From NCBI RefSeq assembly GCF_900215485.1, contig NZ_OCMZ01000001.1:1426001-1490000 (forward strand): a stretch of 64,000 nucleotides of DNA, read 5' to 3'. Of the stretch, positions 54,331 to 64,000 are shown piece after piece. The stretch's first letter is position 1. Each line of letters opens with the position of its first letter. The DNA is from Nitrosovibrio sp. Nv4. Lineage in GTDB: Bacteria; Pseudomonadota; Gammaproteobacteria; Burkholderiales; Nitrosomonadaceae. Made by a program: the position numbers and the translations under genes. The notes beneath the pieces are model-generated. The model was given only the letters and a program-made list of their open reading frames with translations, was not told the origin of the DNA and searched no databases.

Positions 54331-54429
54331 TAGGGCAATAATGGACTCCTCCTTCTGTTGACTCTGGATAGAAACCACAGTCTGCACACTTCGATGCCGC
54401 AGGAGGGAAGAGTCCATTTCATTGCCCTA
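54331..54429. repeat. Long imperfect inverted repeat between convergent genes
   Basis: TAGGGCAATAATGGACTCCTCC (54331-54352, given in part) is mirrored by GGAGGGAAGAGTCCATTTCATTGCCCTA ending at 54429, with small bulges. Transcribed from either side it would fold into a long hairpin with a loop of about 50 bases. It touches the end of the dnaJ-type gene. It may be a bidirectional terminator or a small palindromic element. Confidence 0.55.
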
Positions 54430-55512
54430 TGTTTTGATAGCGCGCAGCCGCTCATACAATTCCCGCTCTTCACGAGTAAGATGCTCCGGCACCTCCAATC
54501 GAATACGAAGATACATGTCTCCGTGCCGGTCGCTGCCAAACTCCGGCAAGCCTTTTCCCTCCAGGCGCAATATCGCGTCGGGCTGAGTACCCGCAGGCAC
54601 GGTCACGCTGGCGGAGCCGTTCAATGTGGGTACCTCCAGTGCAGTACCGAGTATCGCGTCAGTGATCGGTATGCTTACAGTTCGCAACAGGTCGGCGCCA
54701 GCTCGCTCGAAGCGCGGGTCGCGTATCGAACGCACCACCACAAACAGATCACCGGAAATTCCACCCGGTGCGGGACTCGGCATTCCTTTTCCGGTAATCC
54801 TTAGCGCCATGCCTTCCTCGACACCCACCGGGATTTTTACGGTAAGCGTTTCCTCGTGCTCCACCGTTCCACTGCCATTACATTCAGGACAGGGATGTTC
54901 ATTGATTACGCCCCGCCCATGGCATGCTGGGCATGGAGTAATCTGCTGAATCAGTACATGCTCCTGTTCCTTGCGCCGGCTGTACGCAACGCGTCCTGTT
55001 CCGCCGCAGGTTTCGCACTTGCGGGGTGCAACGCCACCTTCTCCTCCAGTGCCATGACAGGCTTTGCAGATTACCGGCCGAGTAAAGCGAACCTTTTCCT
55101 CACCCCCACTGGCTACCCGTTCGAGCGTAACGTACAAATCCACCTCGATATTCGCCCCACGCAGCGGCCCTTTGCGACGATGCCGAAAAAAACTGTCAAA
55201 TGGACTCTCAACACCAAAATCAAAATTGAGCCCGCCAAAAATATCTGCAAAATTGATACCGTTGAACAAGTCTTCCCGGCTGAAATCCGCCACGCCTGCG
55301 AACCCGCGCGCATCATACTCGGCCCGCTTCTTGGGGTCGGACAATACCGCATAAGCCTCGGCAATTTCCTTGAAGCGTTCCTCGGCACCCGGTTCCTTAT
55401 TGCGGTCCGGATGGTATTTCAAGGCGAGGTTGCGGAAGGCATCCTTGATCACCTTCTGGTCGGCGTCCCTGGCAATGCCTAGCAAATCGTAGTAGTCACG
55501 CTGGGCAGGAAT
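54427..55512 (-). CDS. DnaJ-family co-chaperone with zinc-finger domain, apparent ATT start
   Basis: The protein (about 361 residues) has a J domain (about 6-70, with YHPDRN containing HPD), a short Gly/Phe-rich region, a zinc-finger domain with four C-x2-C-x-G-x-G units ([32 protein letters not shown]) and C-terminal substrate-binding domains. It should deliver clients to the nearby DnaK-type protein. No ATG, GTG or suitable TTG begins the complete J domain. The family N-terminus [12 protein letters not shown] is encoded as ATT-CCT-GCC-CAG-CGT, with AAGGTGA six bases upstream and an in-frame stop just before. I therefore place the start at ATT (55512). The next candidate, TTG at 55485, would cut off the first helix residues. 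Confidence 0.85.
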
Positions 55513-55730
55513 AATAGTTCACCTTGAATTTATTTATTCAGCGAGAAATACTGGGATTTATTTTATTTGTTCTGCGAGAAGATATCGTGAATGAACTTCG
55601 TCATCGCGGACATGATCCGGAACCAGTCTCAGTGACCTAATGAACCGCATCATTCCAGGCTTGACCCTGAATCCAGCCCCAGCCAACTCGCCCTTATCAG
55701 GAACCGGATCTGATCCAGATATAAAAAGGA

Positions 55731-58154
55731 TTAATCCGGGGTTTTCTCTTCGCCCAGTTTTTTTTCAAGTTGCAGCACGAATGATTTACTGATTTCCGTC
55801 AGCTCGCTCAGTCGCGCCGCAACCCTTTGATTGAGGCTGCCTTGGGGATATTCTCCGCTGTCGCCAAGCTCCCCGGCCGGCAAATTGGTCAGGATGCCAA
55901 TAGCTTGATCGACATTCTCGATGGGGTATATATGGAACTGCCCGGCCTTGGCAGCCGTCACCACATCCTGGCGCAGCATCAGATGCTTGACGTTCGCCGA
56001 GGGGATCAGCACACCCTGTTCACCGCTTAATCCTCGTGCCGTGCAGATATCAAAGAACCCCTCTATTTTTTCGTTGACGGCGCCGATTGCCTGCGCCTGC
56101 CCAAGCTGATTTACCGACCCGGTCACGGCGAATGCCTGATTGATCGGCGCATGCGCCAGATTGGAAAGCAGTGCGCACAATTCAGCCATGGATGCGCTAT
56201 CGCCTTCGACCATGCCATATGACTGCTCGAACACCAGGCTGGCGGAGAGCGCAAGCGGCTGGTTCCTGGCATAGCGCGCCGCCAGAAAAGAGGAGAGGAT
56301 CAGTACACCCTTGGAGTGGATGGCGCCCGAGAGCTTCACTTCCCGTTCGATATTGATCAGTTCACCGTCGCCAAAGCGGGTGGTGGCGGTAATGCGGGTC
56401 GGCTGGGCAAAGGCAAAATCACCCAGTACCATCACCGAGAGACCATTGACCTGGCCTGCTACCGCACCCTGTGTGTCAATCATCAGGGTGCCACGCAGGA
56501 TTTCTTCATGCAGACGGTCTTTCAGGCGATCCTGCCGGCGGATCTGCGTATCAATAGCCTGCTGCACGTCACTGGCGACAACCACCTCATGACCGGCTTC
56601 CCGGGCCCAGTGATCAGCTTCGCGTAGTAAATCAGCTACGCTGCGCATGTGTGTGGAAAGCCTTTCCGCATCGCCAGCCAGGCGCGCGCTATGCTCGATG
56701 ACTCTTGCCACTCCGCTGCGGTCGAAAGGCAACAACGCTTCCTTGCGAGTCAGCGTGGATATCATGCGTGCATATATCAAAAGCGTATCTGCACTGCGCT
56801 CGATGCGCTCCTCGAAGTCCGCAGCCACCTTGAACAGTTCGCTGAATTCCGGATCGTATTCCTGCAGCAGGTAATAGAACAGACGATCGCCGAACAGAAC
56901 TATCTTGGCATCGAGCGGGATAGGTTCCGGCTCCAGCGAAACGGTGCTGATCAGGCTGTACATCTGCCCCAGGGATTCAATGTGGATCTCGTGCGATTGC
57001 AGTGCCCGTTTAAGACCTTCCCAGGCGAATGGCTGCACCAGCACTTTGCGAATGTCCAGCAGCAGATAGCCGCCGTTCGCCCGGTGCAGTGCGCCGGGCT
57101 TGATCAAGGTAAAATCCGTGACGAGCGCACCAAGCTGGGCAATATGCTCCACTCGTCCAATAAGATTGCTGTAGGTCGGATTATCCTCGCTGATGACGGG
57201 CGCCCCAGCTTTTTTACCGTTCGTTGCCAGTACATTTACCTGATAGTTGTGGAACGTCTGGCGGGTGACGATAGTCATGCCGGAAATATTGGCGGACTCT
57301 TCCTGTTTGCGGAAATCGTCCACATGCTCCACCATATCCTGTTGTACCGCATCGAGATATTTCAGCACCTCGGGCAGATCGGCATAAATGGCGCGCAATT
57401 CATCTATCATATGCTCGACCGCAGATAGCGCAATTTCACGGTTGAGTTGCTTGACCCGTTCACTGCGTTCTCTCCGCCATTGCGGCACGCGGCTCAGGAT
57501 CTTTTCCAGACGTTCCTGCAACTCGGCAATGGCGGTTTCTATCCGCTTTCTTTCTTCTTCCGGCAGTTTTTCGTATTCGTCCGGCGGGATTACCTCCTTG
57601 TTGCGAGTCGGGGCAAAAGCAAATCCTTCAGGTGTACGCAGCAGAGTGACCTCCTGCTTCTCGGCGTCATCACCCAATCCCTTGAAAATATCCTCCTGCC
57701 GCTTGTGAAACTCCTCCTGGATTGCCGCCGTCTTGGCACGGTACTCATCGCTTTCAAACAGTGCGGGGATTGCACTGCGCATATAATCCACCAGCTTCTC
57801 CATGTGCTGGCGCAACTCCTCTCCCCTGCCGGATGGCATTCGGAGCGCGTGGGGTTTGTGCGGCTGGGTAAAGTTATTGATATAACACCAGTCGTCTGGT
57901 TCTCGCTCGTTGCTCGCTTTTTTTTCGAGGAACTGCCGCACCGAGCTCTTTTTTCCCATGCCCGATGGCCCGAGCACGAAAAGATTGTAACCTTCATGAC
58001 GAATGCTTGCACCGAAGTGCACTGCATCCATGGCGCGTACCTGCCCGATGATTTCCGTCAGATCCTCCAGATCTGCCGTGGTTTGAAATCCAAACTGATC
58101 GGGGTCGCACGAGCTGCGCAGCAGTTGATGGTCCAGTGGAGAAAGAGCTGTCAT
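55731..58154 (-). CDS. Lon-family ATP-dependent protease (AAA plus Lon protease domain)
   Basis: This 807-residue protein is a Lon relative without the classical N-terminal Lon domain. Walker A is LGPSGMGKKSSV near residue 60, followed by a long coiled-coil insertion (about 120-260, rich in Glu, Lys and Arg). The second AAA part has GGYLLLDIRKVL (Walker B-like). The C-terminal protease domain has catalytic Ser653 in EGDSAS and Lys696 in NEKIEGFF, 43 residues apart as in Lon. It probably degrades misfolded proteins. It lies between the dnaJ-type and dnaK-type genes, 57 bp downstream of the latter, suggesting a joint protein-quality-control unit. Confidence 0.92.
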   Translation of the reverse strand: MTALSPLDHQLLRSSCDPDQFGFQTTADLEDLTEIIGQVRAMDAVHFGASIRHEGYNLFVLGPSGMGKKSSVRQFLEKKASNEREPDDWCYINNFTQPHKPHALRMPSGRGEELRQHMEKLVDYMRSAIPALFESDEYRAKTAAIQEEFHKRQEDIFKGLGDDAEKQEVTLLRTPEGFAFAPTRNKEVIPPDEYEKLPEEERKRIETAIAELQERLEKILSRVPQWRRERSERVKQLNREIALSAVEHMIDELRAIYADLPEVLKYLDAVQQDMVEHVDDFRKQEESANISGMTIVTRQTFHNYQVNVLATNGKKAGAPVISEDNPTYSNLIGRVEHIAQLGALVTDFTLIKPGALHRANGGYLLLDIRKVLVQPFAWEGLKRALQSHEIHIESLGQMYSLISTVSLEPEPIPLDAKIVLFGDRLFYYLLQEYDPEFSELFKVAADFEERIERSADTLLIYARMISTLTRKEALLPFDRSGVARVIEHSARLAGDAERLSTHMRSVADLLREADHWAREAGHEVVVASDVQQAIDTQIRRQDRLKDRLHEEILRGTLMIDTQGAVAGQVNGLSVMVLGDFAFAQPTRITATTRFGDGELINIEREVKLSGAIHSKGVLILSSFLAARYARNQPLALSASLVFEQSYGMVEGDSASMAELCALLSNLAHAPINQAFAVTGSVNQLGQAQAIGAVNEKIEGFFDICTARGLSGEQGVLIPSANVKHLMLRQDVVTAAKAGQFHIYPIENVDQAIGILTNLPAGELGDSGEYPQGSLNQRVAARLSELTEISKSFVLQLEKKLGEEKTPD

Positions 58155-58211
58155 TTTTTCCGGGGTAACGGCAACGCCGTCTTATTAGTTATGCTGTACA
58201 GGATAAGGAGT

Positions 58212-60113
58212 TTATCTGTTTTCGTTATCACGATACTCGGCATCCACAACCTTGCCGCGCGGACCAGATCCGCTCGGCCGCGGTTCACCTGTTGCTGTGT
58301 CGACATTGGGAGGCGGTTCCGGTCCTTCCCAGCGGGTTTCCGCATAGGGCGCCCCTTTCTGGGCCTGGCCGGATTGCGCATAGAGTGTCGCCCCTGCCTC
58401 CTTCAGCACCTTTTTTAATGCCTCGGCTCTCTCGGTGGCAAGGGAAACATCTTTTCTGACCAATGCTTCCTTTGTTTCGCGCAACGCCGATTCAATCCTT
58501 CTTTTCAGCTCATCGGTGAGCTTGTCGGTAAAGTTGGCGAGCATTTTCTCAGCCTCGTAACATGTTGCATCGGCGGCATTGAGCTTTTCCGCATCGTCGC
58601 GCCGTTTCTTGTCAGCCTCGGCATAATGCGCCGCGTCGTCCACCATGCGTTTCTTGTCATCTTCGGAAAGCCTGGTAGAACCGGATATGCTGATGGATTG
58701 CGACTTGCCGCTTGCCACATCACGTGCGGAAACACCGAGAATGCCATTGGAATCAATGTCGAATGTCACCTCGATCTTGGGAACGCCGCGGGGCGCCGGG
58801 GGCAGGCCATCCAGATTGAATTCGCCCAGACTGACATTGTCTGCCGCCATTGGGCGCTCGCCCTGGAAGACATGTACGGTGACACTGGTCTGCATATCGG
58901 CTGCGGTGGTAAAGGTTTCAGTGCGTTTAACCGGGATGGGGGTATTACGGCCAATCAGGGAAGTTGCGATTCCGCCCAATGTCTCCACCCCCAGCGTAAG
59001 CGGGGTAACATCCACCAGCACGATTCCGCTTACCTCTCCCGCCAGCACCCCGGCTTGAATTGCGGCGCCGGCGGCTACGCATTCCATGGGGTCTACCCCC
59101 ATCTCCGCCTTGCGCCCAAAGAGCTCCTCGAAGTAGGCATGCACGACCGGCATGCGTGTCGGCCCGCCAACGAATACAAGGCGGTCCACATCTCGAGGAG
59201 CGATGCCAGCGTCATGCAGTGCCTGCTCAACCGGGCCGCGGCAGCGCTCGATCACCGGGCGCACCAGACGTTCCAGTTCGGTGCGGTTCAGATCCAGTTC
59301 AAGATGACGCGGCTCGCCGCTTACGGCGGCAAGATAGGGCAGGCTGATGTGGGTAGTGATGTTGGCGGTGAGTTCGATCTTTGCTGCTTCCGCCGCTTCC
59401 AGCAGGCGTGCCGCCGCCTTGGCGTCATTACGCACATCCACGCCTACAGCCATATGGAAGCGCTCCACCAGATGTTCAAATATACGCTGGTTCATGTCGG
59501 TGCCGCCAAGCTGCGTATCGCCGCTGGTGGCCTTGACCTCGAACACACCCTTGCCAAATTCCATGATAGTAACGTCCAGCGTGCCGCCGCCCAGATCGAT
59601 CACTGCGATGCGCAATTCCTGGCCCAGCCGGTCCAGCCCGTAAGCCAGAGAAGCAGCCGTCGGTTCGTTGACGAGGCGTACAACCTCAAGCCCGGCAATG
59701 CGGCACGCGTCCTTGGTTGCGGCGCGCTGATTGTCGTCGAAATAAGCAGGCACCGTCACCACGACTTTTGCCACGGCTTCACCCAGAAAGGCTTCGGCAT
59801 CGCGCTTGATCTTCTGCAACAGAAAAGCGGAGAGCTGTTCCGGCGAGTATTCGCGTTCTCTTAGACGGATGATTTCCCGTTTGCCCATCCTGCGCTTGAA
59901 AGCGCTGGCGGTTCCTTCCGGATTTGCCGCAGCCTGGCGCCGCGCCGGCTCGCCTACCAGAATCTGTCCGTCGGCGGTAAGTGCGACGTAGCTGGGGAAC
60001 GCTTTGCCACCGATGCTGATACCCTCGGCGCTGGGAATAATAACCGGCCGTCCGCCGCGTAGAACCGCGGCTGCAGAGTTGGAAGTGCCGAGGTCGATAC
60101 CGATGATAGCCAT
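58212..60113 (-). CDS. DnaK-family Hsp70 chaperone (accessory copy)
   Basis: The 633-residue protein has an Hsp70 ATPase domain (about 1-375): IGIDLGTSNSAAAV, VVTVPAYFDDNQRAATKDA, RLVNEPTAASLAYG, AVIDLGGGTLDVTI and VFVGGPTRMPVV. A substrate-binding domain follows (VDVTPLTLGVET, FDIDSNGILGVSA), then a helical lid and a Pro/Gly-rich tail. The N-terminus MAIIGIDLGTSNS and the short disordered tail without EEVD-like end set it apart from the main DnaK, which is normally next to grpE and dnaJ; neither grpE nor classical dnaJ is here. GGGAGG precedes the ATG. It heads the dnaK-lon-dnaJ group on the minus strand. Confidence 0.93.
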   Translation of the reverse strand: MAIIGIDLGTSNSAAAVLRGGRPVIIPSAEGISIGGKAFPSYVALTADGQILVGEPARRQAAANPEGTASAFKRRMGKREIIRLREREYSPEQLSAFLLQKIKRDAEAFLGEAVAKVVVTVPAYFDDNQRAATKDACRIAGLEVVRLVNEPTAASLAYGLDRLGQELRIAVIDLGGGTLDVTIMEFGKGVFEVKATSGDTQLGGTDMNQRIFEHLVERFHMAVGVDVRNDAKAAARLLEAAEAAKIELTANITTHISLPYLAAVSGEPRHLELDLNRTELERLVRPVIERCRGPVEQALHDAGIAPRDVDRLVFVGGPTRMPVVHAYFEELFGRKAEMGVDPMECVAAGAAIQAGVLAGEVSGIVLVDVTPLTLGVETLGGIATSLIGRNTPIPVKRTETFTTAADMQTSVTVHVFQGERPMAADNVSLGEFNLDGLPPAPRGVPKIEVTFDIDSNGILGVSARDVASGKSQSISISGSTRLSEDDKKRMVDDAAHYAEADKKRRDDAEKLNAADATCYEAEKMLANFTDKLTDELKRRIESALRETKEALVRKDVSLATERAEALKKVLKEAGATLYAQSGQAQKGAPYAETRWEGPEPPPNVDTATGEPRPSGSGPRGKVVDAEYRDNENR

Positions 60114-60187: not shown

Positions 60188-60910
60188 TCATGCAACGGCT
60201 TTCTGAAGTGTTTCAAGTACCACGCTGCGCAATTCACGCCATTGAGGACCGCCCTCAAGAACATGTTTCTGGTTGATTTCCAGCTCTATTCCTACATAGG
60301 TATCTGCAGAAAATCGGCGGCGCAGGTAGGTGACAAAACCGTCAGCCCTGCCAGCATAGGGATAGTTGCGGCGTACCGTCAGGTTGGCTGCGCGCGCCTT
60401 GAGGTTTGCCTGCCACCGCATGCACAAATCCCGCTCCAGAGGTCGAGATGGATCGTAAAGCAGACCGATATCGGCATTGCGGATTTGTCCATTGAGTTCC
60501 GGCGTGAAACTGTGTGATGAGATATGGATGATTTTTTCGCCGCGTCCAATCGCCTCGGCAATACTGGCCTCGGCTACAGTGCGATAAGGCATGTAGTGAC
60601 GCGCCAGAATCTCGCTGCGGACCTCGACCGGCGCAGATTGAATGGCTTTGGAATAAAGCTGCGGATGGCGAAGGGAGCGGTTGAGATCGATTAGGAGACG
60701 GCTTGTAGTACCGGCAAACAAAGGAGCGTCAAGCGCCTTTGCAAGCTCCTTCGCCATGCGCAGGGTGCCCCGGTCATAGCCGCGATGACTGCGCAGCAAA
60801 GACTCGAAGCCGCCAAAGAATTGCTGGTAGCATTGCGGAATTCGATTACCGCCATGTTCGCAGGTAATCAAAAAATTGAATATATCAGTCAAGGCTACCT
60901 TATCACTCAA
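60188..60910 (-). CDS. N-formylglutamate amidohydrolase-family enzyme
   Basis: The 240-residue protein belongs to the FGase family of zinc amidohydrolases. Motifs are TCEHGGNRIP (with metal-site Glu and His), SHRGYDRGT, LIDLNRS, the metal-binding HISSHSFTPEL, and RNYPYAGRADGF. Characterised members release formate from N-formylglutamate in histidine breakdown, but no hut genes are present here. Related stand-alone proteins occur next to GCS2 amidoligases, as in this case, so it may instead hydrolyse an amide made by that enzyme. The start appears to be TTG at 60910, with GGGAGG boxes directly before and 12 bases upstream. It follows the GCS2 gene by 58 bp. Confidence 0.88.
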   Translation of the reverse strand: MSDKVALTDIFNFLITCEHGGNRIPQCYQQFFGGFESLLRSHRGYDRGTLRMAKELAKALDAPLFAGTTSRLLIDLNRSLRHPQLYSKAIQSAPVEVRSEILARHYMPYRTVAEASIAEAIGRGEKIIHISSHSFTPELNGQIRNADIGLLYDPSRPLERDLCMRWQANLKARAANLTVRRNYPYAGRADGFVTYLRRRFSADTYVGIELEINQKHVLEGGPQWRELRSVVLETLQKAVA

Positions 60911-60968
60911 CCTCCCTTATGACCTCCCTTATATGAACAGCCGGTTTGACAACAAACCGATAAATACG

Positions 60969-62210
60969 CTAACTCATCCCCAAAAACATCCGCCCTTCTT
61001 CCAGGCACTCGCACAGTTCCCGATAGACGGCCATCAGCCGCGTCCTGCTGTAGTCGGAGCCCAGGGCGAGCAGAATGCGGCGAGCCAGTGGACCGTGCTC
61101 CAGAATGGTTTGGAGTCCGTTCTGCCAGGTTTTTCGCTGTTCAGGCTGGCTCCCCGTCATTGGCGCGATGAGATGCTGCCACAGCTCGCGGGCCTCGCAA
61201 CGCTGAGCGGGAAAGCCCAAAAGCCGCAGATATACGGGATCCGTTATCACCGCTCGCTCGGCATCGCGTATGCAAGCCCGCATGATCTTGATCAGTGCGT
61301 CCGTATCGAGGACCTGCTGTTTCGCAAGTGGCGCACAGGTTTCATTGTAGAGAGTTCGCACAACATCAACTGCGGCAGCGGCAATGGCGAGGTTAGCCTC
61401 CGGGCATTCCTGTGTGTCCACCACCCGTATTTCAATGGCGTTGCGGTCGAAACGGGGAACTGCGCCGCGCGCATTGAGCCATTCATGCTCCAGAATTCCT
61501 TCTTCATCAAACACCGCAATGTCCTCGTACATCGGCGCCAGAATTTCTGCCTCGTACGCGGCGCGGCTAGTCGCCGTTTCCGGGATTACCCGGCCTATCG
61601 TCGAGGGTATCCTTATTTGATGCGTGCAGTAGTTTTCCATGCGAAAATCGAGAAACCCGGCGTTGCCGCCATCCGCGATCGGCGAACTGGCAGACAGCGC
61701 CGGGAGGATAGGCAGCAGCAGCCGGACGGCGGCGTGAAGACGCGCAAATTCGTGGTCATCGGCAAACGGCAGGTTGAGATGCATGCTCTGGAGATTGGCC
61801 CAGCCATGCCGTTTGCAGTTGAAGATCCGGTCATAGGCACGATAGATATCGGCGTTGTCATGTGGCCACAGCCGTGTCTCAGTGCCAGGGTTCATCCACG
61901 GATGCATGCCCCCAGGCATGAGCCTGGCCCCCATGGGTTCGAGCAGGCGATTGATTCGCTGAACCTCGCCCTGAAAGGCCGCCGGGAGGGATTCCATTTC
62001 GGGGACGGGATTTACATTTTTGAGTTCGAGCAGGTGCAGCACCAGTTCATTGGACCATGCCAGCGCACCGTGCCTCACCTCGGAAGCACGCGTTCCCGAA
62101 AGCTTCTGCAGCAACTCGTCGGCCACTGGCAAGACCGAAAGGGTCTGGCAATCGACGATCATATACTCCAGCTCGATACCGTAGCCGGAGAATGCCCGTA
62201 AGGCCCTCAT
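60969..62210 (-). CDS. GCS2-type carboxylate-amine ligase (glutamate-cysteine ligase-like)
   Basis: The 413-residue protein belongs to the glutamate-cysteine ligase 2 superfamily, which activates a carboxylate with ATP and couples it to an amine. The N-terminal YGIELEYMIVD and LLELKNVNP carry the metal- and ATP-binding glutamates. GMHPW, the MHLNLPFAD segment, SASSPIADG and RIPSTIGR follow, and RFDRNAIEIRVVDTQECP forms the last core strand. True plant/bacterial GshA enzymes are similar, but this version with neighbours C39-like peptidase and N-formylglutamate amidohydrolase matches a distinct conserved cluster. The real substrates are unknown. It overlaps the peptidase gene by 4 bp (ATGA). 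Confidence 0.87.
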   Translation of the reverse strand: MRALRAFSGYGIELEYMIVDCQTLSVLPVADELLQKLSGTRASEVRHGALAWSNELVLHLLELKNVNPVPEMESLPAAFQGEVQRINRLLEPMGARLMPGGMHPWMNPGTETRLWPHDNADIYRAYDRIFNCKRHGWANLQSMHLNLPFADDHEFARLHAAVRLLLPILPALSASSPIADGGNAGFLDFRMENYCTHQIRIPSTIGRVIPETATSRAAYEAEILAPMYEDIAVFDEEGILEHEWLNARGAVPRFDRNAIEIRVVDTQECPEANLAIAAAAVDVVRTLYNETCAPLAKQQVLDTDALIKIMRACIRDAERAVITDPVYLRLLGFPAQRCEARELWQHLIAPMTGSQPEQRKTWQNGLQTILEHGPLARRILLALGSDYSRTRLMAVYRELCECLEEGRMFLGMS

Positions 62211-62932
62211 CGCCCCTCGGCCTGCTCGGCAGGCTGCCGATATGAGTGGATGACCAGCAAATTGGCGTCCTGCGTAACGATGCCTAGCATTACCGCGCCC
62301 AGAACCCGATCGATATTACTCCAGTACTCCTGGGACGGCCCATAGGGATCGGCTACCAGCACCGTACGCTTGTCGCGGTTGTAGCCGGCCATGACAACGA
62401 AATGTCCCGCCGGATAGCCCCGCACATCGTCCGGTATGTCATGCGGTCCGTATTCCCGCGCGGCGCGATAAAGAAAGGTGGAGCTCAATCCCGTCAGGAT
62501 GGGCAGACCGCGACGCAAGAGGCCGTGAATGAGTGACTGAGAGAGGTCGGTCAGGCGCAGCCGTCCGCCCAGGCGCAGAAATTCCAGATAGCCGTCGGTG
62601 GCGTGCCGCAGCCTGAGATCCTCTTTTACCTCGCGCTGCTGCCGGAGCCGATCGGCGATATTCACTCCGGCGACAAACCAGGTGGGATCGAATACAGTAA
62701 GGTTATATGTATAAATTGTCGCCTGAAAGCCATTGCGCAGAGCATCGCAAGCCAGAAAAACAGCAAAGGTGCCACTGCCGCTTTCCAGTTTACGGGTGCG
62801 GGCAATGACGCTCTCCAGCCGCTCGGTTTTTCCCCAATAGTTGTAAATGGTATGCAGGCAGGTGGGTCCGCATGTCGTTTCATCCGGCTGCGGCAGTGTT
62901 GTGACCGGCAAGCGTAATGTGGTCCGGAGCAT
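62207..62932 (-). CDS. Peptidase C39-like papain-fold protein
   Basis: The 241-residue protein has a papain-like layout: catalytic Cys21 in DETTCGPTCL, His177 in GYPAGHFVVMAGY and Asp195 in LVADPYG. This is the Cys-His-Asp order of C39 double-glycine leader peptidases and their relatives. No signal peptide or transporter domain is attached, so it should act in the cytoplasm. It opens a three-gene run with the GCS2 ligase (4-bp overlap) and N-formylglutamate amidohydrolase-like enzyme. It could process a peptide, act as an amidase, or work in reverse as a transpeptidase; the sequence does not tell. Confidence 0.82.
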   Translation of the reverse strand: MLRTTLRLPVTTLPQPDETTCGPTCLHTIYNYWGKTERLESVIARTRKLESGSGTFAVFLACDALRNGFQATIYTYNLTVFDPTWFVAGVNIADRLRQQREVKEDLRLRHATDGYLEFLRLGGRLRLTDLSQSLIHGLLRRGLPILTGLSSTFLYRAAREYGPHDIPDDVRGYPAGHFVVMAGYNRDKRTVLVADPYGPSQEYWSNIDRVLGAVMLGIVTQDANLLVIHSYRQPAEQAEGR

Positions 62933-63168: not shown

Positions 63169-64000
63169 TTATGGCGCGACCAACAGCTGTTTCAGTTTCT
63201 TCCAGGCCTGCTCATCGGCAGCGATACCCGCTTTCTCGTTGACGAACTCTACCGTAACGGTGCGCTCCTGCGCGGATAGCGCTTCCTGTTTTTCCTGCAA
63301 TAATTCCAGCACGGCGAGATCGGCTTCAGATGCATCGTTCGATTGACTCTGTCGCTGCGTGATGCGTGTGCGCAGTGTCGCTGTGCTGGATTTCATTGAC
63401 GCGATGGCAAACGGCACCGCCAATTCATGTGCGAGCTGACGAAAATGTTCACGCTCATTCCGTTTGAGAAAAGCAGCGTCCACAATCACCGGCATCCCAG
63501 CGGTGAGCAGGCCCCGCGCCAGTTCGAGGAGTCGTGCGTACGTTCGCCGTGTCGCTTCCGCGTCGTAAATGCTGCTCGCATGCATGCTGCTATCCGCCAG
63601 CGGAGCCAGTCCGAATAAACGTTTGCGTTCCACATCGGAGCGGATGCGGATTGCCTGAAGCTGCTCCAGCGCTGCCTGCGCAAAGGTCGTCTTGCCCGAC
63701 CCCGGCAAGCCGTGAGTGATGACCAGCCCAGGCTGGTAATACCCGATGCGTTCCACAGCCAGAGCAAGAAAACTGCGGCACCTTGCCATAGCCTCGGCCT
63801 TGGCGCGTTTGGACAGGCCCGTCTGTCCGACGCGGATAGCATTGACCATGGCGCGAACCACGGCGCGGTAGACGACATAGAAGCGCAACATGGATACGCC
63901 GATGTAATCACCGGTGATCTCCAGATAGCCATTCAAAAAACGGTATGCCAGGTCAGCGCGCTTGTAATGCAGCAGATCCATGACGGTAAAGGCAACTTCG
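63169..64000 (-). CDS. ATP-binding protein of the aminoglycoside-phosphotransferase/P-loop kinase type, partial
   Basis: The C-terminal ~277 codons of a larger gene; the frame is open through base 64000 (EVAFTVMDLLHYK and onward), so the ATG at 63981 is probably internal. The visible start matches the end of a phosphotransferase-like domain (MDLLHYKRADLAYRFLNGYLE). A P-loop kinase domain follows: Walker A THGLPGSGKTT near the middle, IRSDVERKRLFGL, and VIVDAAFLKRNEREHF. Proteins of this two-domain layout are annotated as bifunctional aminoglycoside phosphotransferase/ATP-binding protein; the true substrate is unknown. It is 237 bp upstream of the C39-like gene on the same strand. Confidence 0.82.
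   Translation of the reverse strand, partial: EVAFTVMDLLHYKRADLAYRFLNGYLEITGDYIGVSMLRFYVVYRAVVRAMVNAIRVGQTGLSKRAKAEAMARCRSFLALAVERIGYYQPGLVITHGLPGSGKTTFAQAALEQLQAIRIRSDVERKRLFGLAPLADSSMHASSIYDAEATRRTYARLLELARGLLTAGMPVIVDAAFLKRNEREHFRQLAHELAVPFAIASMKSSTATLRTRITQRQSQSNDASEADLAVLELLQEKQEALSAQERTVTVEFVNEKAGIAADEQAWKKLKQLLVAP

Follow-up and report, generated by a model that had tools for sequence, protein, structure and literature searches.

We analysed a three-gene cluster at positions 60188 to 62932 of a 64,000-nucleotide stretch of the genome of the ammonia-oxidising bacterium Nitrosovibrio sp. Nv4; this whole stretch is called the window here. The genes lie head to tail on the same strand, with a 4-bp overlap (ATGA) between the C39 and GCS2 genes and a 58-bp gap between the GCS2 and FGase genes. 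This arrangement had been described in an original prediction made from the letters of the window alone, and is borne out by the open reading frame (ORF) coordinates and the Pfam matches. A fourth gene, encoding an RLAN-RimK ATP-grasp protein, is located on another contig of the same genome.

62207..62932, minus strand: C39-like papain-fold cysteine peptidase/amidase gene; 241 amino acids (aa), ATG start, PF13529
60969..62210, minus strand: GCS2-type carboxylate-amine ligase gene (glutamine-synthetase-like fold); 413 aa, ATG start, PF04107
60188..60910, minus strand: gene for a relative of FGase (N-formylglutamate amidohydrolase); 240 aa, TTG start, PF05013
C2:688529-690040, contig other than that of the window: RLAN-RimK ATP-grasp protein gene; 503 aa, PF14401 RLAN match

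The cluster is real and conserved, and is a split version of a known but uncharacterised module. Almost certainly, it comprises three of the four genes of a conserved amidoligase module with the order C39, RLAN-RimK ATP-grasp, GCS2 and FGase, whose ATP-grasp gene has its place at another chromosomal site in the Nitrosospira lineage. The window genome is 98.78% complete and holds one RLAN match, that of the gene listed above. C39, GCS2 and FGase follow each other in order on one strand, and no RLAN remnant was found between the overlapping C39 and GCS2 genes; because the RLAN-RimK gene does not lie between these two, we regard the window cluster as a variant of the module. The original prediction was right that no ATP-grasp partner stands beside the cluster. 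It had described a module of three parts, which has to be corrected to four, as the unlinked RLAN-RimK gene belongs to the operon clade in the tree described below.

The module was delineated by scanning named genomes with an alignment of 20 GCS2 proteins. At least 560 relatives were confirmed, and the best 80 of these at least 560 were kept as named loci, among which close relatives are over-represented. A linked ATP-grasp gene, which the original prediction had proposed to look for, adjoins GCS2 in 79/80 named loci and is unlinked in the window genome. The complete order C39-RLAN-GCS2-FGase is present in 61 loci; 13 are without FGase, four without C39, one consists of RLAN-GCS2, and one, from Nitrosospira multiformis Nl12 of the window's genus, is the only locus without RLAN. 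Four of the five loci without C39 start inside RLAN at a contig end. The records span Pseudomonadota, Thermodesulfobacteriota, Myxococcota, Planctomycetota, Acidobacteriota, Spirochaetota, Bacteroidota and others, with many metagenome bins. Given the number of confirmed GCS2 relatives, the cluster is of a known kind and less novel than had been implied. In the open-access literature, outside which most subscription papers lie, we found no paper assigning this gene combination a product, no paper on RLAN or PF14401, and nothing relevant naming Nitrosospira.

Sampling 369 genomes from the class gave a congruent picture. RLAN was detected in 81 genomes and this GCS2 subfamily in 17, every one with at least 378 bits; scoring covered at most four first-look candidates per genome, and 17 may therefore be an undercount. 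All 17 GCS2 genomes, which include the window genome (G000) and come from 14 families, also carry RLAN, compared with 81/369 overall (hypergeometric P 1.5e-12, kinship not corrected). RLAN adjoins GCS2 in 15 of them, and the four genes are contiguous in 13. In G038, from the same taxonomic order as the window genome, they run C39, RLAN-RimK, GCS2 and FGase. The same gene order is spread over two contig ends in G154, and G256 has RLAN-GCS2 without C39 and FGase. Some named loci are the same contigs as those of the genome samples (L126/G009, with identical GCS2; L178/G062; L184/G210). As a side observation, the operon is split a second, separate time in G155, where C39-RLAN (L114, G155:C17) and GCS2-FGase (L115, G155:C18) both lie well inside their contigs.

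The three cluster proteins match their Pfam families well above the cut-offs: PF13529 Peptidase_C39_2 with 43 bits (cut-off 24), PF04107 GCS2 with 89 bits (cut-off 21) and PF05013 FGase with 83.9 bits (cut-off 28.9). Cys21, His177 and Asp195 of the C39 protein, previously described as intact, are identical together with Gln15 in 75/75 named homologues with a C39 gene, which gives the conserved Gln-Cys-His-Asp catalytic set of a papain-like cysteine peptidase; Gln15 presumably has the oxyanion-hole role. The GCS2 residues E13, E15, N54, E55, H135, E260 and R262 are kept in 80/80 named homologues, and the FGase residues E18, H19, D46, H129, E209 and E211 in 66/66 named homologues with an FGase gene (H133 in 65/66). 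Among Nitrosospira pairs with a proportion of synonymous differences (pS) <0.55, pairwise ratios of nonsynonymous to synonymous substitution rates (dN/dS) were 0.06-0.15 for C39, 0.17-0.24 for GCS2 and 0.14-0.30 for FGase. The nearly identical C39 pair G016-G022 (dS 0.011) gave 0.51, with too few changes to tell. All four module genes are under purifying selection. A promoter and terminator scan returned counts equal to the chance expectation.

Within the genus of the window genome, the sample comprised 23 genomes (G000-G022, with G002 only 80% complete). C39, GCS2 and FGase are intact in eight of them (G000, G001, G003, G007, G008, G009, G014 and G020). This recurrence, together with the low pairwise dN/dS, argues that the order C39-GCS2-FGase is not due to chance, and answers the check on relatives that the original prediction had suggested. 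The set is partly decayed in three genomes (G016, G017 and G022), and in 12/23 none of C39, GCS2 and FGase was found. A type A RLAN occurs in 14/23, namely in all eight intact genomes and in G016, G022, G004, G006, G010 and G011; no RLAN was found in 8/23. The eight intact three-gene genomes thus all keep a type A RLAN, compared with 14/23 overall (P 0.006, kinship not corrected).

Quick trees with support from the Shimodaira-Hasegawa-like approximate likelihood ratio test (SH-aLRT; no bootstrap) connect the separate gene with the operon. In the RLAN tree of 122 proteins, 11/12 Nitrosospira copies fall inside the operon clade, as sister to the operon copy of Candidatus Nitrotoga fabula (SH-aLRT 99); this position identifies the unlinked RLAN-RimK as the operon's gene. 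For the RLANs of G008, G016 and G022, which stand outside the tree, these Nitrosospira copies are the nearest relatives. The twelfth copy, from G018, joins a GNAT-linked branch and has a GNAT gene just before it (L054, L226, G018:C30). A foreign replacement of the ATP-grasp gene in Nitrosospira was therefore rejected by the RLAN tree and is true only of G018. The GCS2 tree (105 rows) is in agreement: Nitrosospira groups with Nitrotoga and Nitrosomonas (97), although Nitrosospira is not resolved as one clade. The same membrane-protein gene adjoins RLAN in 9/10 other type A genus loci compared; at the tenth, G004, RLAN has cytochrome and glutathione-transferase-like neighbours, as in other genus loci. 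This common new site fits a single move, and we infer one relocation of RLAN in Nitrosospira rather than two gains. The unlinked RLAN-RimK gene is preceded, at a distance of 99 bp and on the same strand, by a gene for a 491-aa protein without a Pfam match above cut-off (L004:6955-8430). It adjoins RLAN in 9/10 other type A genus loci compared and might be a new partner.

RLAN also occurs in a second genomic context. We read 20 RLAN loci without this GCS2 (L206-L225), chosen from 64 class genomes as 19 high-scoring loci and one low-scoring locus. A GNAT acyltransferase gene is located beside RLAN or within about 1.2 kb in 20/20, on the opposite strand in three, and these stretches showed neither a GCS2 or FGase gene nor a type A C39 gene. 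In 18/20 loci, a C39-like domain is part of the same ORF as GNAT; L208 and L216 show the GNAT part only. A Pfam scan of three GNAT proteins assigned GNAT and DUF3335 to all three. A published classification (PMC10318531), citing the 2009 amidoligase survey discussed below, reports that fusion to GNAT domains is common among DUF3335 proteins. An alignment of the cluster-type and GNAT-fused C39-like domains spans 165 columns and covers their Cys, His and Asp motifs (probability 91%, E 1e-6). The GNAT-DUF3335 (C39-like) and RLAN-RimK pair thus resembles the module in its homologous RLAN-RimK and related C39-like domain, and differs in that the 20 loci read carry GNAT where the module has GCS2 and FGase. 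What stays constant is thus RLAN-RimK together with a papain-like domain; what varies is the choice between GNAT and GCS2 with FGase. We know of no product of this sister system.

What the enzymes resemble gives some guidance on their chemistry. For the AlphaFold model of the GCS2 protein (predicted local distance difference test, pLDDT, 92.9), the nearest structures are YbdK (1r8g, 1tt4) and plant glutamate-cysteine ligase (GCL; 2gwc), followed by GshA; Dop and PafA match less well. Against NCBIfam, the protein has nine matches, all far below their cut-offs; the YbdK family TIGR02050, similar in fold, is missed with 58.5 bits against 176.4. The RLAN-RimK protein resembles RimK, MptN, LysX and glutathione-synthetase-type ATP-grasps. 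In NCBIfam it scores best against the RimK family, MptN and LysX, with CofF ranking lower, and every one of these matches stays below its cut-off. The C39 model (pLDDT 88.9) has PeiR, Xylellain, C39 peptidases and phytochelatin synthase Alr0975 as nearest solved folds, with query-side template modelling (TM) scores of at most 0.52, so no single function follows. By sequence, the FGase protein is a relative of the solved protein 2odf (E 4.6e-24).

Since an ATP-grasp gene is present in the genome, ligation probably proceeds in two steps. In our proposal, GCS2 would join the gamma-carboxyl group of glutamate, or of a similar acid, to an amine to give a gamma-glutamyl amide, and RLAN-RimK would attach an amino acid to a carboxylate. 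The two ligases may jointly build a short gamma-glutamyl-capped peptide, following the two-ligase logic of GshA and GshB with another product. The C39-like enzyme would cleave or remodel this peptide, and FGase would remove or recycle its acyl-glutamate end. That the ligase makes and the hydrolases trim, as the original prediction had suggested, appears to be the natural reading. GNAT in place of GCS2 is consistent with a variable acyl cap, and the exchange suggests an N-terminal cap, which would be an acetyl group in the GNAT systems and a gamma-glutamyl group in those with GCS2. The modelled GCS2 fold, shared with YbdK, plant GCL and GshA, would support this chemistry, as would the resemblance of the C39 model to phytochelatin synthase among others. 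Taken as a whole, a split module that synthesises and trims a gamma-glutamyl-capped peptide is our best explanation, at about even chances; for the gamma-glutamyl-capped chemistry by itself, proposed by analogy, we would put the chances somewhat below even. A wider generalisation is offered only tentatively and is rather doubtful: many bacteria including nitrifiers might make such a peptide in parallel to glutathione through GCS2 and RLAN-RimK with dedicated hydrolases, alongside a GNAT sister system with an acetyl cap, and in Nitrosospira the second ligase might have moved out and gained a further use.

Several observations weigh against this explanation. The fold matches of C39 are too broad to point to gamma-glutamyl peptides in particular. 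FGase was not found in 14/80 named loci, 12 of them with at least 0.9 kb of contig past GCS2; among the 13 lacking FGase only, this holds for 11. Within the genus, G016 and G022 keep C39 and RLAN with GCS2 fragments only and no FGase, and G017 keeps FGase and a broken GCS2 without RLAN or C39. In addition, a type A RLAN is all that G004, G006, G010 and G011 keep of the module, and it is under similar constraint, the dN/dS of these four lone copies being 0.09-0.20 versus 0.07-0.22 for the other copies. It follows that RLAN-RimK can serve without the cluster, which leaves its link to the cluster in Nitrosospira an inferred one. The intact three genes were never seen without RLAN in the genus sample; yet RLAN-RimK evidently acts without them.

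This last point leads to the alternative that the three genes act without RLAN-RimK in Nitrosospira, where RLAN would have another role, and that GCS2, C39 and FGase make and degrade a gamma-glutamyl amide. RLAN is indeed unlinked in the genus and kept alone in four of its genomes, but its retention in all eight intact genomes and its position beside GCS2 in nearly all named loci make this unlikely. The main rival is protein tagging, in which RLAN-RimK would add C-terminal amino acids and GCS2 a gamma-linked residue, and C39 and FGase would remove them, similar to RimK/RimB acting on the ribosomal protein RpsF. It would explain why RLAN-RimK stands among RimK-like ATP-grasps and why no linked transporter or precursor peptide was seen among the flanks; a RimK/RimB ligase-protease pair is documented in the accessible part of PMC12239564, and the GCS2 fold is also, more distantly, that of PafA and Dop. 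However, the flanks contain no conserved linked target gene either, a GCS2 ligase with FGase is generally typical of small-molecule chemistry, and RLAN-RimK falls below the cut-offs of both the RimK family and the S6 ligase model, so that we consider tagging a serious but rather improbable reading.

Other readings fare worse. An ordinary glutamate-cysteine ligase supplying glutathione could be suspected from GCS2 family membership and the plant GCL fold, but the window genome has its own full-length 548-aa GshA (PF04262, 478 bits) and GshB (PF02955, 250.5 bits), the cluster GCS2 is far below GCL model cut-offs (e.g. gshA_cyano, 25.8 bits against 249.05), and its match to plant GCL in the PDB sequence search is weak (E 0.006). 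The original prediction had already doubted a plain glutathione route; we rejected it because of the separate GshA and GshB, and hold it to be highly improbable. A ribosomal peptide locus, with C39 trimming a leader and the ligases modifying the core, is very improbable as well. C39 peptidases are known as leader proteases from Pfam and the fold matches, and ATP-grasp ligases modify such peptides according to the available part of PMC8939145; but no small ORF upstream of C39 is common to more than 4/75 loci and no other flanking ORF family to more than 7/80, and the 241-aa C39 protein has C39-type domain matches only, without the ABC transporter fusion of bacteriocin-leader peptidases. A ribosomal peptide or export locus was rejected on account of these flanks. 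Finally, the Pfam FGase match could place the protein in histidine degradation as an N-formylglutamate deformylase with unrelated neighbours. In agreement with the original prediction, which saw no histidine-degradation genes, HutH (PF00221) has no match in the window genome, and the HutH pathway expected of a HutG deformylase is thus absent and contradicts this role; moreover, the protein matches no NCBIfam model at E 0.01, and FGase follows GCS2 in 66/80 named loci. This reading was rejected, its probability being close to nil. A defence system was also rejected; PADLOC gave one weak match, of C39 to PDC-M27C (E 0.0066).

A second GCS2 gene in the window genome (L005:8071-9186, 371 aa, 181.5 bits) is YbdK-like and is located about 2 kb from the GshA gene.

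Among known systems, the closest relative is the neighbourhood reportedly described in the amidoligase survey of Iyer et al. 2009 (Mol Biosyst 5:1636), which is said to combine RLAN/RimK, GCS2, a papain-like protein and FGase, with a predicted role in peptide synthesis. The enzyme set is the same, in the same order in most related genomes here; the difference is that RLAN-RimK lies outside the cluster in the genus of the window. GshA and GshB likewise pair a GCL/GshA-fold ligase with an ATP-grasp ligase, but they are present separately in this genome, and two linked hydrolases belong to the cluster. With RimK/RimB of Pseudomonas, the module shares a RimK-like ATP-grasp ligase opposed by a peptidase; in the part of the source available (PMC12239564), RimB is a retropepsin-like protease and no GCS2 or FGase appears, and RLAN-RimK misses the RimK cut-off. 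Synthesis of N-acetylglutaminylglutamine amide (NAGGN) by Ngg and AsnO offers a further likeness: as far as the accessible text of PMC8070244 goes, one enzyme acetylates one glutamine and joins a second, giving an N-capped dipeptide through an acetyltransferase/peptide-bond-forming enzyme with a linked peptidase. The enzymes are different ones, and NAGGN serves as a precedent only; RimK/RimB is a second precedent for the proposed mechanism.

An order kept across many phyla, in a host with its own glutathione genes, points to a common metabolite or modification. Nitrosospira provides a natural experiment, in which the ligase stands apart and many species have lost the other genes or retain them broken; a comparison of strains with the full set, with the ligase only and with neither could reveal the product. 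The swap of GCS2 and FGase for GNAT adds a specific, testable chemical guess, and the interest of the cluster rises once its unlinked fourth gene is seen.

Regarding the neighbourhood, genes for a DnaJ-like protein (by eye), a Lon-like AAA protease (807 aa) and HSP70 (633 aa) lie downstream of the cluster on the same strand (window 54427-60113); among the loci compared, HSP70 and Lon-like genes stand beside the cluster only in G020. The upstream gene (window 63169-64000; in full L006:7170-8798) encodes 542 aa, with a kinase-like AAA_33 domain at the C-terminal end; no homologue was found at the G038 locus. Homologues are located near the cluster or its remnants in 11/11 genus loci fetched, about 3.2 kb off in G007 and G008, and the cluster therefore keeps the same site within the genus.

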